In this document: positions 1,688 to 38,505 of the stretch, piece by piece
Position numbering within the stretch: the first letter of the stretch is position 1
Layout of the letters: every line of letters begins with the position of its first letter
The notes under the pieces: model-generated
Database searches by the model: none
What the model was told of the DNA's origin: nothing
What the model saw: the letters and a program-made list of their open reading frames with translations, nothing else
Made by a program: the position numbers and the translations under genes
Source: an uncultured Olleya sp.
GTDB lineage: Bacteria; Bacteroidota; Bacteroidia; Flavobacteriales; Flavobacteriaceae
Direction: 5' to 3'
NCBI GenBank assembly: GCA_947503885.1
Contig: CANNFD010000002.1
Location: 186,001-250,000, forward strand
Length of the DNA: 64,000 bases

Positions 1688-4261
1688 ATGAAATATAGCC
1701 TTATCATATTCTTTTTTTTTGTCTTCGGAAACTGTTTTTCGCAAGACTTAGAAGAGGCTATTTATGTTGCAACGGAAACATTTAATGCAGATAGAAATCC
1801 AAAAACTTATTCCGTTTTATTAAAAAACGAAGCTAGTTTTAAATCAAAATTAAGTACAAAAGACGACTATTTTGCTTACCTATTTTTACTAGTAAACAAA
1901 GCCAATTATTTAGAAAAAACTAATCAGCAAACAAAAGCAATTGCTACTTACGAGACTGCTTTAAACCTTTATAACAAACAAAAACTTGACAAAACATTTG
2001 TTTACGACATTACGGAATTCTGCTTAAAACCTTTAGGAATTTTATATAATCAAATTGGAGATTATACTAACGCCGAAAACACAATTAAGCATTATATTTT
2101 TTTAGCAGAACAGCAAAAAAACATACCACATAAAATTAGTGGCTCTATTAACTTGGCCCGACTATATTTTACAATCGGGAAATATAAATCTGCTAAAGAC
2201 GTAGCAAATAATGGCTTAGAGATTAAAGGCGCAACGGACTTACAAAAGCAAATGCTTAAACGTATAATCACCGATAGTACTATTAAAGGTGCTTCGTCAA
2301 AATCCAACAGTACAAATCCTATAGTTTTAGAAACTAATTCTGATAATGACATCAACTACCAGCTGGCTTTAAAAAACAAGGATTATAAAAAAGCTTTAGC
2401 TTTTTTTAAATTAAAATATTCTCAACTAAATACAGAAGGCTTAACAGCTAGAGATCAAGCAAAATTAAAGGTAGAACATGCTCAAATTTTATACAAATTA
2501 AATGATTTTAATAATGCTTTAATGCTATTAAAACAGGCATTAAATATATTATTACCAAACTACAACCTTAAAGTGCTTCCCGAAAAAGAAGACCTATATC
2601 CAGAAAACACATTTATTGATATTTTTGATTTATTAGCAAGATTACAAACCAATCCAAATAACACCTTAGCCTGTTACGACTTAAGCTTTTATGTCTCTAA
2701 TTTGCTCACTCAAAATATAACGTCTCAGGAAGCCAAACTAATACATTTAAGTGCCAACAGAAACCGAAGCGAATTATGTATAAACTTGCTGTTTGACACT
2801 TATCAAGCCACAAAAGACACAACAACAATTATAAAAGCGTTTGATTACGCTGAAAAAAATAAAGCTTCTATTTTAAAAGAAACGATAGGCAAAAAAACGC
2901 TATTTCAATTACATCCTAATGATAGCCTATTAATAAAAGAACAATCTTATTTACTTAAACAAGAGCGTCTAACTAACGATTTAATTAAAGCCCAATACCA
3001 ACAAAATGCAAATCAGATCGATTTAATAAGTCAAGACCTAACAAATGTTAGTGTCACTTTAAAACAATTAAAATCTAAGATTAACAAAAGATATCCTGAT
3101 GTAGATAATACATCTATTGATTTTACCAGGCTTCAACAAAAACTTAAAAAAGACGAAGCTATTTTAGTCGAGTATTTTTATGGTGTAAACAATGTGTTTC
3201 AGTTTACAATATCTGACACAGGTTTTGATTTAATTAGAATAGAAAAAAATACTTTATTTGATTCAAGTATTGCTAATTATATAGATTATTTTAATAATTC
3301 TTCAGTAATAAATAATAACATCCAACAGTTTACAACAGATGCGTTGCTGTTATATAAGTTATTGCAATTTGATAAAACTGCGACTTATAAAAACGTGGTT
3401 GTGATAACGGATGGCTTTTTAAATTTTATTCCTTTTGAAAGTTTATTAACTCAAAATACAACTACAAAAAGCTATTCTAAAATGCCTTTTGTAGCTAAAA
3501 ATCAAGCATTAGCCTATAACACAAGCGCTTTATTTTATTTAAACAACAGGCCTTTTAAATATAGTAATACGGTTTTAGGAGTTTTTCCTGTATTTGACAA
3601 CAGTAATTCTAAACTTACCTACTCGTTAAACGAAGCTGAAAGCATAGATAAAGCAACAAACGCAAAGTTTTTAATGTACGATTCTGCTACAAAAAACGAT
3701 GCTTTGCAGCAAGCAAAAAACTATAGTGTATTACATTTATCCACACACGCTACTAGTGGATCATTTACCGTACCTGCAAATATAGATTTTATTGATCAAA
3801 AATTATTTTTAAACGAATTATACAGCCTAAACCTAAATAATAATTTAGTGGTTTTAAGTGCTTGCGAAACTGGTATAGGGAAACTACAAAAAGGAGAAGG
3901 CAGCATGAATTTGGCTAGAGGATTTCAATATGCTGGTGTGGAGAATTTATTATTTTCACTTTGGAAAATTAATGATTTATCAACCTCTCAGTTAATGGCT
4001 TTGTTTTATAAAAATTATAGTAAAACAGAGTCTGCCTTTAAAGCTAATCATTTATCAAAGGTTGATTATTTAGAGGATAATAGTATTTCAAACATTAAAA
4101 AATCACCATATTATTGGAGTGCTTTTATCTATTATGGCGATTTAACACCAGAAAAGCCATCTAATTTTTTAAAATCCATCCTTTTTACTTTTATTGGTTT
4201 AGGGATTGCTTTACTTTTAATACTTATAATACGTAGACGTAAAAATGGACAACACGCTTAA
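1688..4261 (+). CDS. TPR-CHAT domain protease, membrane anchored
   Basis: An 857-residue protein with a signal peptide (about residues 1-18, ending CFSQ), helical TPR-like repeats over roughly 50-450 and a C-terminal CHAT domain (about 560-815), the caspase/separase-like peptidase fold. The predicted dyad is present: His687 in LHLSTHA and Cys726 in LSACETG. A single transmembrane helix near 830-850 is followed by an RRRK tail, so the protease should face the periplasm. CHAT proteins elsewhere act as induced proteases, for example in gasdermin and Csx29 systems; the substrate here is unknown. It overlaps the downstream aspartyl protease by 17 bp, so the two are translationally linked. The call to the CHAT family is firm; the physiological role is not. 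Confidence 0.88.
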   Translation: MKYSLIIFFFFVFGNCFSQDLEEAIYVATETFNADRNPKTYSVLLKNEASFKSKLSTKDDYFAYLFLLVNKANYLEKTNQQTKAIATYETALNLYNKQKLDKTFVYDITEFCLKPLGILYNQIGDYTNAENTIKHYIFLAEQQKNIPHKISGSINLARLYFTIGKYKSAKDVANNGLEIKGATDLQKQMLKRIITDSTIKGASSKSNSTNPIVLETNSDNDINYQLALKNKDYKKALAFFKLKYSQLNTEGLTARDQAKLKVEHAQILYKLNDFNNALMLLKQALNILLPNYNLKVLPEKEDLYPENTFIDIFDLLARLQTNPNNTLACYDLSFYVSNLLTQNITSQEAKLIHLSANRNRSELCINLLFDTYQATKDTTTIIKAFDYAEKNKASILKETIGKKTLFQLHPNDSLLIKEQSYLLKQERLTNDLIKAQYQQNANQIDLISQDLTNVSVTLKQLKSKINKRYPDVDNTSIDFTRLQQKLKKDEAILVEYFYGVNNVFQFTISDTGFDLIRIEKNTLFDSSIANYIDYFNNSSVINNNIQQFTTDALLLYKLLQFDKTATYKNVVVITDGFLNFIPFESLLTQNTTTKSYSKMPFVAKNQALAYNTSALFYLNNRPFKYSNTVLGVFPVFDNSNSKLTYSLNEAESIDKATNAKFLMYDSATKNDALQQAKNYSVLHLSTHATSGSFTVPANIDFIDQKLFLNELYSLNLNNNLVVLSACETGIGKLQKGEGSMNLARGFQYAGVENLLFSLWKINDLSTSQLMALFYKNYSKTESAFKANHLSKVDYLEDNSISNIKKSPYYWSAFIYYGDLTPEKPSNFLKSILFTFIGLGIALLLILIIRRRKNGQHA

Positions 4262-4697
4262 AGACTTTTTATTTGCAAAAAATTATATAAGAGTCAAATT
4301 AAAACTTACAAAGACCAATCATTTTGAAATTAAGGCATCAATAAATGGTGTAAAAGGATTGTTTATTTTAGACACAGGTGCATCTAATAGTTGTGTTGGA
4401 TTTGAAGCTACAGAAAAATTTGTGCTAAATAAAGTTAAGGATTCTAAAATCCTTGCTGCTGGAGCTGGCGCAACTAATATGCCTACCCAAGTTTCTAAAA
4501 AAAACACCATAGCAATAGGGCGACTAAAAATAAAAGAATCTGCTTTAGTATTATTTGACTTAAGTCATGTTAATGCTGCTTTAGTACATCATAATGGACA
4601 ACCTGTAGATGGTATTATTGGTGCCGATATATTAAAAAAAGTGAAAGGAATTATTGATTATGAAAAAAAACATTTGTACTTAAAAAAATTAGTCTAG
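4245..4697 (+). CDS. Retropepsin-like aspartyl protease
   Basis: A 150-residue single-domain protein with the retropepsin active-site motif FILDTGAS (Asp43) after a short strand-rich N-terminus, and a second family hallmark, DGIIGADIL, near residue 125. Bacterial retropepsins of this size work as homodimers, each chain giving one Asp. No signal peptide is visible, so it is probably cytoplasmic, unlike the CHAT protein whose 3' end it overlaps by 17 bp. Two unrelated protease folds in one transcription unit suggest a proteolytic cascade or a shared maturation process, but that is inference. The response-regulator gene begins 60 bp downstream. Confidence 0.82.
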   Translation: MDNTLKDFLFAKNYIRVKLKLTKTNHFEIKASINGVKGLFILDTGASNSCVGFEATEKFVLNKVKDSKILAAGAGATNMPTQVSKKNTIAIGRLKIKESALVLFDLSHVNAALVHHNGQPVDGIIGADILKKVKGIIDYEKKHLYLKKLV

Positions 4698-4757: not shown

Positions 4758-5399
4758 ATGAGTGCATCAATTGTTATAGCAGATGACCATCCATTAATGT
4801 TAAGAGGACTCTCTGACTTTATTACCTCAAGAGGTTTTAAAATAATTGGAAGTGCAGAAGATGGTCAGACAGCATACAACCTTATTATCAAACTTAAACC
4901 TGACATTGCATTATTAGATATTAGAATGCCAAAAATGACAGGTATAGATGTTGCTGAAGCCTGTTTTAAAAACGAATTGGACACTAAAATAATACTTATA
5001 ACATTTGATAATGAGGAGCATTTATTTGATAAAGCACGTGCCTGCAATGTATATGGTTATATTTTAAAAGAATTTGCTGTTGAAGAAATAGAAACATGTA
5101 TTGCACATGCTTTAAAAGGAGAACCTTATTTTAGTGAAGAGATTGCCTCTTACCTTAATGCTAAGGTAACCTATTCTAGTTCAAACTTAACAGAAATGCT
5201 TACCCCAACCGAAATTAAAGTGGTTAAGTTATTGTCTGAAAAACTAACTACAACAGAAATTGCAGAACAACTAATGAGCTCTCCAAGGACTATTGAAAAA
5301 CACAGAAGTAATATTGTTAAAAAATTAGATTTAAAGAAATCTCATAATGAGCTAATGCTTTGGGCTAACATGAACAAAGAAGTATTAAAGCATATATAA
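4758..5399 (+). CDS. NarL/FixJ-family response regulator (orphan)
   Basis: A 213-residue two-domain regulator. The receiver domain (1-120) has the acidic pair Asp9/Asp10, the phospho-acceptor Asp54 (LLDIRMP), Thr82 and Lys104, all required residues. A LuxR/NarL-type helix-turn-helix follows at about 145-205 (LTPTEIKVVKLLSEKLTTTEIA, then RTIEKHRSNIVKKL). No histidine kinase gene lies beside it, so the partner kinase is elsewhere or input comes another way. The stop codon is immediately followed by four palindromes of the 7-2-7 inverted-heptamer geometry used by NarL-family proteins, which makes it the natural candidate to control the small-RNA array downstream. That link is inferred from position and geometry only. 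Confidence 0.9.
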   Translation: MSASIVIADDHPLMLRGLSDFITSRGFKIIGSAEDGQTAYNLIIKLKPDIALLDIRMPKMTGIDVAEACFKNELDTKIILITFDNEEHLFDKARACNVYGYILKEFAVEEIETCIAHALKGEPYFSEEIASYLNAKVTYSSSNLTEMLTPTEIKVVKLLSEKLTTTEIAEQLMSSPRTIEKHRSNIVKKLDLKKSHNELMLWANMNKEVLKHI

Positions 5400-5407
5400 C
5401 TGGATAA

Positions 5408-5429
5408 AAATACGTAGTTCTACGTATTT
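5408..5429. promoter_or_regulatory. Palindromic operator of small-RNA unit 1
   Basis: Perfect palindrome with 10-bp arms AAATACGTAG and CTACGTATTT around a TT spacer. Read as inverted heptamers it is TACGTAG-tt-CTACGTA, the 7-2-7 layout known for NarL/NarP sites. Its centre is 43.5 bp upstream of the predicted start at 5462. The right arm overlaps the -33-like TTTC (5427-5430), and the -7 box TACCTTAG is at 5450-5457, 19 bp further on. Activation by a dimeric regulator at about -43 is the simplest reading; repression is possible because the -33 element is covered. Confidence 0.75.
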
Positions 5430-5461
5430 CATATGTCGATAATGTGTTATACCTTAGCAGT

Positions 5462-5530
5462 GCTATTAAATCAATTTTAGGGAAATTGAGAAAGCTCTAA
5501 AACAGACAACTTGTTTTGGAGCTTTTTTTT
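5462..5530 (+). ncRNA. Predicted small RNA, unit 1
   Basis: About 69 nt from the conserved G of GCTATTAA (5 nt after the -7 box) to the end of the T-run. It folds into a 5' hairpin, CAATTT (5472-5477) with AAATTG (5483-5488) and loop TAGGG, then a terminator of 14 pairs: AAAGCTCTAAAACA (5491-5504) with TGTTTTGGAGCTTT (5512-5525), one G-U pair, followed by T's. There is no start codon with a sensible frame inside. Expression is predicted from sequence only. Confidence 0.72.
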
Positions 5531-5548
5531 GAACACGTCCCAAATAAA

Positions 5549-5570
5549 AAATACGTACCCCTACGTATTT
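5549..5570. promoter_or_regulatory. Palindromic operator of small-RNA unit 2
   Basis: The same 22-bp palindrome as in unit 1 but with 9-bp arms AAATACGTA and TACGTATTT around CCCC, so the inner heptamer base differs. TTTC at 5568-5571 and the -7 box TACCTTAG at 5591-5598 are separated by 19 bp. Conservation of the outer arms with a changed centre points to the TACGTA core as the recognised part. Confidence 0.72.
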
Positions 5571-5602
5571 CACAACTCAATTATATCATATACCTTAGCA
5601 GT

Positions 5603-5667
5603 GCTATTAATCATAATATATAAAAATTAAAAAGCTTTAAAACCGTCAATTGTTTTAAAGCTTTTTT
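5603..5667 (+). ncRNA. Predicted small RNA, unit 2 (divergent)
   Basis: About 65 nt beginning GCTATTAA and ending in a perfect 13-bp stem, AAAGCTTTAAAAC (5631-5643) with GTTTTAAAGCTTT (5652-5664), plus T-run. It lacks the G-rich-loop 5' hairpin seen in units 1, 3 and 4; that stretch is AT-only. It may be a degenerate copy or have a different target. Confidence 0.62.
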
Positions 5668-5685
5668 TGATTTTACTCCAAATAA

Positions 5686-5707
5686 AAATACGTAGTTCTA
5701 CGTATTT
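5686..5707. promoter_or_regulatory. Palindromic operator of small-RNA unit 3
   Basis: Identical 22 bp to unit 1 (10-bp perfect arms, TT centre). TTTC lies at 5705-5708 and the -7 box TATCTTTA at 5728-5735, again separated by 19 bp. Confidence 0.75.
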
Positions 5708-5739
5708 CATATATCAATAATAGATTATATCTTTACATT

Positions 5740-5809
5740 GCTATTAATCAATTTATGGGAAAATTGAGAAAGCTCTAAAACAGACAAACTTGTTTTGGAG
5801 CTTTTTTTT
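5740..5809 (+). ncRNA. Predicted small RNA, unit 3
   Basis: About 70 nt, the closest relative of unit 1. The 5' hairpin pairs CAATTT (5749-5754) with AAATTG (5761-5766) around loop ATGGGA. The terminator pairs AAAGCTCTAAAACA (5769-5782) with TGTTTTGGAGCTTT (5791-5804), followed by T's. The near-identity to unit 1 suggests redundant targets or gene dosage. Confidence 0.72.
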
Positions 5810-5826
5810 AAGCAAAACCCAAATAA

Positions 5827-5848
5827 AAATACGTAGTTCTACGTATTT
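5827..5848. promoter_or_regulatory. Palindromic operator of small-RNA unit 4
   Basis: Identical 22-bp palindrome to units 1 and 3. TTTC at 5846-5849 and the -7 box TACCTTTA at 5869-5876, 19 bp apart. This unit is upstream of the micropeptide gene at 5964. Confidence 0.75.
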
Positions 5849-5880
5849 CACATGTCAACAATACACTTTACCTTTACAAT

Positions 5881-5947
5881 GCTATTAATTAGTTCTTAGG
5901 GAGAATTATTTAACGAAAACTCTGCATTGTAATGATGCAGAGTTTTT
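5881..5947 (+). ncRNA. Predicted small RNA / leader, unit 4
   Basis: About 67 nt beginning GCTATTAA. The 5' hairpin keeps loop TAGGG (5897-5901) but its stem is AGTTCT with AGAATT instead of CAATTT with AAATTG, so base pairing is kept while the sequence differs. The final stem, AAAACTCTGCAT (5916-5927) with ATGCAGAGTTTT (5935-5946), is unrelated to the other units and has a short T-run. Because a small gene starts 17 nt after it, this hairpin could be a leaky terminator or attenuator rather than an absolute end. Confidence 0.68.
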
Positions 5948-5963
5948 ATTAATCATTAAAATT

Positions 5964-6074
5964 ATGGACATAGAAAAACGAACACAAGAACAAAACAGAA
6001 TTATTACTGTTTGTATTATCATACTGTCAGTAATTTTAATCAGTTTTAATTTATTTATTTATTTTAATAAGTAA
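5964..6074 (+). CDS. 36-residue membrane micropeptide
   Basis: ATG at 5964 opens a 36-codon frame ending TAA at 6072-6074. The peptide has a charged hydrophilic N-terminus (MDIEKRTQEQNR), then one hydrophobic helix of about 22 residues rich in Ile and Leu, and ends FNK, so it should be a single-span membrane peptide. It is preceded by promoter unit 4 and its hairpin, and followed 5 bp later by a strong terminator, so it has its own compact transcription unit. Nothing in the peptide identifies a family. It could be a regulator of the neighbouring envelope proteins or a small toxin; both are guesses. Confidence 0.6.
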   Translation: MDIEKRTQEQNRIITVCIIILSVILISFNLFIYFNK

Positions 6075-6078
6075 GCAT

Positions 6079-6113
6079 AAAAAAAGGGAGCAACAATGTT
6101 GCTCCCTTTTTTT
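6079..6113. terminator. Bidirectional terminator between micropeptide and odhB
   Basis: The stem GGGAGCAAC/GTTGCTCCC is extended by A-T pairs on both sides, with an A-run before and a T-run after, so it can stop both the rightward array/micropeptide transcript and the leftward odhAB transcript. Confidence 0.85.
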
Positions 6114-6129
6114 ATATAATTATAACTTG

Positions 6130-38385: not shown

Positions 38386-38505
38386 TGGGCATTACCCTTT
38401 TCCGCAAAAAGCTACAAAGTGTCGCGCTATCCACTGTATCTTTTTGTTCTTTTTAGTAAAACAAAAAGGATGTCGTTTCTATCGCTAATGCACTAAACCG
38501 CTAAC
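38386..38505. repeat. Probable dispersed flavobacterial intergenic repeat
   Basis: The gap after the small membrane gene has a composition unlike the neighbouring intergenic DNA: GGGCATTACCC, GTCGCGCTATCCACTGTATC, then a hairpin ATCTTTTTGTT / AACAAAAAGGAT (38438-38448 and 38460-38471) and GTCGTTTCTATCGCTAATG. From memory, this order of blocks resembles a non-coding repeat scattered through many Flavobacteriaceae genomes. Only one copy is in this window, so the repeat status rests on recollection. Confidence 0.5.

Follow-up and report, generated by a model that had tools for sequence, protein, structure and literature searches.

A tandem array of putative small RNAs beside a LuxR-type response regulator gene in Olleya: an apparently undescribed regulatory RNA family of the Flavobacteriaceae

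We describe four tandem units with the parts of small RNA (sRNA) genes, situated beside a response regulator gene in the window, i.e. the 64,000-nucleotide stretch of an uncultured Olleya sp. contig analysed in this work. The units apparently represent an undescribed multicopy regulatory RNA family that recurs in many genera of the Flavobacteriaceae; their transcription has not been shown. The reading we prefer, and hold to be probable without being certain of it, is that the regulator switches on a set of trans-acting sRNAs, amplified in dosage, together with a small membrane protein. To our knowledge, little is known about sRNA regulation in Bacteroidota outside Bacteroides. Three usual families of RNA-binding partners were not found in the Olleya genomes searched, which makes the array a system for asking how sRNAs act without Hfq, and its natural variation in copy number at a fixed operator geometry offers a way to study how two-component output scales with gene dosage. 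The same regulon raises the question of what a conserved membrane micro-protein does. The candidate regulator next door and the canonical 5' sequence add to the use of the array as a ready system.

The array begins immediately 3' of the stop codon of the regulator gene (4758-5399), and the starts of its units are spaced by 141, 137 and 141 bp. In each unit a 22-bp palindrome is followed by a short -33-like element and, after 19 bp, by a TAnnTTTR-like box; then come GCTATTAA, a hairpin and a T-run. The palindrome, which we refer to as the operator, has the form of an inverted TACGTA-N4-TACGTA. The features of the locus are, in window coordinates:

1688-4261, plus strand: TPR-CHAT protein, upstream and in the same direction (PF12770)
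4245-4697, plus strand: retropepsin-like aspartyl protease, conserved neighbour (PF13650)
4758-5399, plus strand: response regulator, receiver and LuxR/GerE HTH (Pfam PF00072, PF00196)
5408-5429, plus strand: unit 1 operator palindrome, AAATACGTAGTTCTACGTATTT
5450-5457, plus strand: unit 1 -7 box, TACCTTAG (TAnnTTTG consensus from the available part of PMC9723704)
5462-5530, plus strand: unit 1 predicted RNA, GGG-loop hairpin and terminator (folding, covariance model)
5549-5570, plus strand: unit 2 operator palindrome, CCCC centre
5591-5598, plus strand: unit 2 -7 box, TACCTTAG
5603-5669, plus strand: unit 2 predicted RNA without the GGG loop, most degenerate of the four (47.1 bits, the lowest score)
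5686-5707, plus strand: unit 3 operator palindrome
5728-5735, plus strand: unit 3 -7 box, TATCTTTA
5740-5808, plus strand: unit 3 predicted RNA (folding, covariance model)
5827-5848, plus strand: unit 4 operator palindrome
5869-5876, plus strand: unit 4 -7 box, TACCTTTA
5881-5949, plus strand: unit 4 predicted RNA, canonical UUAGGGAGAAUU form with a short T-run (76.9 bits)
5964-6074, plus strand: single-helix membrane micro-ORF, 36 aa, MDIEKRTQEQNRIITVCIIILSVILISFNLFIYFNK (conserved position and frame; no Pfam match)
6077-6115, no strand assigned: 19-bp inverted repeat that separates the array from odhB and resembles a bidirectional terminator

A first-pass annotation of the window had proposed four such units of palindrome, box, start and hairpin, and we find them at the positions it gave. 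GCTATTAA begins at each of the proposed starts (5462, 5603, 5740 and 5881), as can be read directly from the letters, and the 19 bp from TTTC to the TAnnTTTR-like box are seen in four out of four window units. The TTTC element, on the other hand, is common to the window units but is not invariant, as relatives have TTTT, TTGT and others in its place. Nor are palindrome and hairpin fully uniform, since unit 2 has a CCCC palindrome centre and lacks the GGG loop.

According to the available part of PMC9723704, the flavobacterial -7 box TAnnTTTG occupies positions -12 to -5, and this placement puts +1 at the G of GCTATTAA and the centre of the palindrome at -43.5. The distance between the operator and CTATTAA is exactly 36 bp in 63 out of 63 units that score at least 9/12 for the operator; these come from 67 units that were chosen by CTATTA[AG]T beside regulator homologues. 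A centre at -43.5 is a usual location for a LuxR-type class II activator, and the palindrome is the most conserved portion of the unit. We propose that a dimer of the active regulator would bind TACGTA-N4-TACGTA at -43.5, overlapping the poor -33 element, and that the bound regulator, once phosphorylated, would recruit RNA polymerase as a class II activator at all copies together. The spacing, initially described as invariant, is so in the four window units; among the named-record loci there are four units (L119, L134, L147 and L148) with 37 instead of 36 bp. It should be added that TTTR-N4-GCTATTAA is enriched genome-wide, the control giving 3 matches where this pattern gives 20. Two of the 20 belong to the array; the remaining 18 are for the most part not promoter-like by eye, and part of GCTATTAA may be a general feature of start regions. 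Two start-like sequences elsewhere in the window's genome (G000) are mentioned for completeness: at L097 (G000:C1:361999-362014, minus strand) TTTACAGAGCTATTAATCTAAGTAGGGC has a strong hairpin behind it (-26 kcal/mol over 90 nt) and no operator, possibly a further sRNA with the same start, and at L105 (G000:C5:144036-144051, minus strand) a GCTATTAAT start precedes a terminator-like hairpin that ends about 65 nt on, which makes another short RNA possible.

RNAs of about 68 nt are predicted to start at GCUAUUAA and to end at the intrinsic terminator. The four window RNAs fold better than their shuffled versions (z values of -5.3, -4.6, -6.1 and -5.9, with 0 out of 200 shuffles as good in each case), and a terminator-like hairpin is present in 127 of 132 distinct units, with a median RNA length of 68 nt. 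All 132 units were selected by the fixed geometry and therefore cannot test it. For the analysis of covariation the set was reduced to 62 non-redundant units, from which 7 were dropped by rule (terminator energy above -10 or length of at least 78) and 10 more were removed manually, as alignment of their 5' part seemed difficult. In the remaining 45 units both sides of the terminator stem change in 12 of 13 pairs, 93.5% of the cells are paired, and 0 out of 500 shuffles were as good. These figures may flatter the stem, coming from 45 of 62 units; the innermost pair was scored one column off (53-73 where it should be 53-74), which costs that pair only. The strong covariation of the terminator stems indicates that an RNA of the plus strand is under selection. 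As for the 5' part, GCUAUUAAUUAGUUCUUAGGGAGAAUU is identical from Olleya to loci whose regulators are less than 50% identical (L045 and L050), and many other units retain the purine motif (GGGA, AGGA or GAGAG) while the surroundings have changed; some units do not retain it. The 5' hairpin is weak, with 15 of 62 folds beating 95% of the shuffles (some segments had been shortened by the terminator call).

Conservation, geometry and the compensatory changes in the terminator stem thus support the original proposal of tandem, separately promoted and terminated sRNAs under one operator type. The same data speak to the idea that the array is a repeat family without RNA function, in which the palindromes would act as decoys that buffer the regulator and the terminators would merely insulate. 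In its favour, the palindrome is the part conserved best, and the tandem copies are homogenised within species; yet conservation extends to the -7 box, to the distance of 36 bp and to the 5' sequence of the RNA, and the stems covary. We find this idea hardly credible. With respect to known RNA families, no gathering-level Rfam match was found in the array, and raising E up to 5 gave only sub-threshold matches to unrelated families. Elsewhere in the window (38416-38498, minus strand) there is an Rfam Flavo-1 RNA match of 59.5 bits that does not start with GCTATTAA. A search of the 10 Olleya genomes with our covariance model yielded 64 matches: by coordinates 51 belong to arrays, one more lies within an array but on its other strand, and 12 are located elsewhere. 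The last group was considered as dispersed sRNA copies and rejected, as 10 of the 12 non-array matches inspected by eye are gene-end terminators.

Absence of the unit from related genomes would have refuted the proposal, as the first-pass annotation itself pointed out. The unit is not absent: it was found in 10 out of 10 Olleya genomes searched, with 2 to about 10 copies per genome, and a loose pattern (operator, fixed gap and GCTATTAA, with up to 2 mismatches) matches 127 of 397 Flavobacteriaceae genomes and 88 of the 237 genera sampled, as opposed to 8 of 397 genomes for the reversed control. Some of the 127 genomes have only a lone 2-mismatch match, perhaps by chance. A mismatch-free match occurs in only three genomes of a class-wide sample of 395, all of them Flavobacteriaceae. 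Beyond the family, a match is present in 9 of 381 class genomes, always with 1-2 mismatches, compared to 6 of 395 for the control, so the non-family matches were counted as chance. Among the named-record loci, 26 of the 55 examined (80 were fetched) carry at least one unit.

The exact operator is found 3 to 9 times in 9 of the 10 Olleya genomes and in 0 of 30 other genomes, while the tenth Olleya genome has a variant operator twice, with the distance unchanged. G005 has 9 operators in a single array, and G003 has 8 and 3 operators at the ends of two contigs with a 117-bp overlap, which amounts to about 10. One of the three exact operators in both G007 and G008 is an orphan site away from the array. 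Internal units of Olleya are 86% alike within species and 72% between them. The last units are 83% alike between species and 66% alike to the internal units of their own genome; these values are from 7 of 10 loci, as two GTG micro-ORF starts were missed and one array end is on another contig. Internal units are thus most alike within a species and last units across species, a pattern that fits tandem amplification having acted on the internal units of each species. We suppose that the internal copies would yield sRNA only, that tandem duplication would multiply or lose them, and that array length would set the dosage.

The response regulator encoded at 4758-5399 probably turns the units on. 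This assignment rests on position and conservation, there being no binding or expression data, and both activation by this regulator and the signal are inferred. Among 30 loci identified solely through the unit pattern, each from a different one of the 127 matching genomes, a regulator homologue is directly upstream in 28, a retropepsin-like gene is present in 27, and odhB lies downstream in 25, within the stretch covered. Both exceptions match the pattern with 2 mismatches; one has no recognised neighbours, and the other lies before a PQQ_2-domain gene. In the 65 family genomes covered by both searches, tallied by hand, units occur in 23 of the 29 that have a close regulator homologue (at E 1e-55 or better, with the broken copy of G075 also counted) versus 2 of the 36 that have none (Fisher p 4.7e-10). 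What counts against the assignment is that 6 of the 29 genomes with a close homologue have no unit. The 2 genomes with units and no close homologue, G064 and G072 (L226 and L227), count against it too: their unit still stands between the retropepsin gene and odhB, although the stretch contains no regulator homologue. Upstream in the window's genome there is also a protein with PKD, DUF7619 and DUF7849 domains. A scan of nine upstream ORFs showed no histidine kinase; one divergent gene, which lies upstream of the window and of the genes leading to the regulator (L196, 7320-7901, minus strand), codes for a 193-aa protein with a sigma-70 region 2 domain, ECF-like by size.

Operator-like sites also occur outside the array. 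Two sites in the window's genome (C9:107449 and C11:58835, 0-1 mismatch) have TAnnTT at the array distance on one strand and no GCTATTAA, and the same is true of the orphan operators L008 and L019 of G007 and G008, which are one orthologous site. Of the weaker 2-mismatch sites, 1 of 7 checked has TAnnTT at this distance, the background being 1.4% per position. Since the box distance is kept at sites without GCTATTAA, it looks like a property of the activator and not of the sRNA. L008 and L019 were rejected as further sRNA copies for want of GCTATTAA; as they keep the -7 box at the array distance, we count them as possible regulon members. Together with L055 (G000:C9:107449) and L056 and L062 (G000:C11:58835 and 59553), which have TAnnTT at the array distance and no GCTATTAA either, they are likely to be further targets of the regulator. 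The 2-mismatch operator sites number 16 in the window's genome (4 of them in the array) versus 7 for the control and are thus partly due to chance. One of them lies about 100 bp upstream of a gene for a 1395-aa DUF285 surface protein, beside a paralogous regulator (L061, G000:C7:73500-81500) that is 41% identical and adjoins a Y_Y_Y/HisKA_3 kinase. We dropped this site as support, because it does not have the array box distance and because some sites with 2 mismatches are due to chance. At L071 1500-1560 (G274:C14) a variant site that shares the geometry and GCTATTAA precedes a PQQ_2-domain gene, similar matches being present in G058, G315, G320 and G363; such sites are perhaps another regulon member or a site of a paralogue. 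Finally, an operator-like palindrome is located about 200 bp upstream of a gene that is curlin-like by eye (L059/L104, G000:C4:25762-25964) and whose leader contains ATGCTATTAATCAA.

The micro-ORF behind the last unit was absent from the first-pass annotation. It has about 36 codons and one hydrophobic helix, and its position and frame are kept in 9 out of 9 Olleya loci scored, two of which use a GTG start. Substitutions by codon position number 338, 153 and 504, i.e. third positions vary most. Similar micro-ORFs are present in many other genera; in most loci examined the micro-ORF comes after the array, and in some there is one after the first unit too. In Aequorivita, Altibacter, Pukyongia and UBA1903 a related TACGTG...ACGTA site stands directly before the micro-ORF with no sRNA unit, and the regulator homologues at these loci are of about 50% identity. 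T-runs just before a micro-ORF are shorter than elsewhere (mean 4.7, n=35, versus 7.6, n=44; p 3e-9, an optimistic value because the rows are related and not independent). The claim that every unit terminates independently therefore needs qualification for unit 4, which has a short T-run and a conserved membrane micro-ORF (5964-6074) behind it. Unit 4 is probably both an sRNA and a leaky leader of the micro-ORF, the RNA as well as the read-through being inferred: the last copy, separately conserved and with a weaker terminator, would give an sRNA and, by read-through, a single-helix membrane protein of ~36 aa.

One may go further and suppose that the whole array is a ladder of operators and promoters with attenuator-like terminators that controls nothing but the micro-ORF, the short RNAs being by-products. 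The usual place of the micro-ORF behind the array or after the first unit, and the loci where it directly follows an operator, are in line with such regulated leaders. However, the longer T-runs of the internal units would be expected to stop read-through, it is hard to see why one leader would need up to about 10 terminated copies, and the 5' part of the RNA is conserved across genera beyond what a terminator needs. We regard this explanation as improbable.

In the preferred reading, that of a regulator-activated sRNA set, the RNAs would act in trans through the purine motif UUAGGGAGAAUU, often placed in a weak hairpin, by short pairing with mRNAs and without Hfq. Base pairing through the purine motif, UUAGGGAGA being the motif in question, is our first choice even though no partner has been shown. 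CsrA was found in 0 of 31 genomes (controls were detected in E. coli, B. subtilis and T. maritima), RRM_1 in 0 of 10 Olleya genomes and 2 of 31 overall (controls detected in Bacteroides ihuae and Synechococcus elongatus), and Hfq in 0 of 21 genomes (control detected in 5 of 14). The complement of an 11-nt motif, TTCTCCCTAAR, has 24 matches in the 10 Olleya genomes, 19 of which are the arrays themselves, compared with 37 for the reversed control; the five sites outside arrays differ in their surroundings. This test covered only one 11-nt stretch and its perfect complement. With no Hfq, CsrA or RRM protein found in Olleya and no target from the 11-nt test, the mode of action, including base pairing and targets, is inferred.

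The lack of a perfectly matching target in that test would also suit a mechanism similar to Gac/Rsm, in which repeats of a GGGA-type motif would sequester an RNA-binding protein and the number of copies would determine how much of it is bound. A LuxR/FixJ-type regulator, an upstream palindrome and multicopy short RNAs agree with titration, as does the GGGA or AGGA motif that many units keep while its flanks change. But the hairpin is weak and absent in unit 2, and the searches for CsrA (0/31), RRM_1 (0/10 Olleya genomes) and Hfq (0/21) mean that an RNA-binding protein not known so far would be needed, so we think titration unlikely. Somewhat less doubtful, and still no more than a tentative suggestion, is a broader picture of an unnamed Flavobacteriaceae module. 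There, one regulator would drive an sRNA array independent of Hfq, CsrA and RRM proteins, together with the micro-protein; array length would be an evolvable gain control, and the GGGAG sRNAs would act via an RNA-binding protein or a pairing rule new to Bacteroidota. GGGAG in the units is the complement of the CU-rich motif of Gram-positive sRNAs.

How does the array compare to known regulatory RNAs? We found no description of it in the literature, subscription papers and preprints being outside our coverage. The earlier statement that no described family has such a layout is nevertheless too strong in kind, since multicopy sRNAs under a regulator, such as LhrC, csRNA and Qrr, are already known, as is FopS, a multicopy sRNA family in Bacteroides. 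In the Gac/Rsm system of Pseudomonas, a LuxR/FixJ-type regulator and a palindromic upstream site go together with multicopy RNAs (RsmX/Y/Z) that carry GGA motifs. The LuxR-type regulator, the upstream palindrome and the multicopy RNAs are shared with Olleya; the difference is that no CsrA/RsmA homologue was found in our genome searches. GGGA or AGGA is common in the units, but the hairpin that would present GGA in a loop is weak and missing in some of them. The csRNA copies of streptococci are mostly dispersed, unlike the Olleya copies, which form one array beside the regulator gene. RbpB of Bacteroides is an RRM protein; the search for RRM_1 proteins gave none in any of the 10 Olleya genomes.

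The remaining comparisons are limited to the available parts of the cited papers. The LhrC1-5/LisR system of Listeria monocytogenes, which together with csRNA/CiaR comes nearest to the array in design, also has several short sRNAs with their own promoters under one response regulator, and its RNAs have two stem-loops, the second being the terminator, and an exposed target motif (PMC4132741). At the sequence level Olleya likewise has a number of short RNA genes that possess a promoter and an intrinsic terminator of their own. The UCCC loop motif is not, as three of the four window units have a GGG loop and unit 2 has neither. LhrC pairs its UCCC motifs with a GGGAG site in the mRNA, whereas in Olleya it is the RNA itself that carries GGGAG, and the LisR-responsive element is upstream of -53 while the Olleya palindrome is centred at -43.5 (PMC4132741). 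In addition, Listeria belongs to another phylum and the Olleya array has no Rfam match. Similarly, CiaR controls several sRNAs, the csRNAs, which have the strongest promoters within a two-component regulon; they were found by searching for an operator followed by a terminator, and S. sanguinis has two tandem copies (PMC8186281). The CiaR site is a direct repeat, TTTAAG-N5-TTTAAG (PMC8186281), in contrast to the inverted repeat of the Olleya operator, which does not qualify as a CiaR-type site. Within the same phylum, FopS/GibS of Bacteroides thetaiotaomicron are multicopy paralogous sRNAs with a conserved 5' part; FopS has 14 copies with canonical promoters and RbpB as partner, as opposed to one operator-controlled array in Olleya (PMC11697453). 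Rfp18 of Flavobacterium psychrophilum is an sRNA from the same bacterial family with at least 3 stem-loops, the third of which is predicted to pair with protease mRNAs; the available part of the source (PMC9723704) describes no tandem array or regulator for it, and its sequence was not compared with the array. In summary, the Olleya array works like the LhrC, csRNA and FopS systems in its general plan, but it differs from them in operator type, motif, partners and phylum and has no Rfam match, and we have therefore filed it as a separate family.
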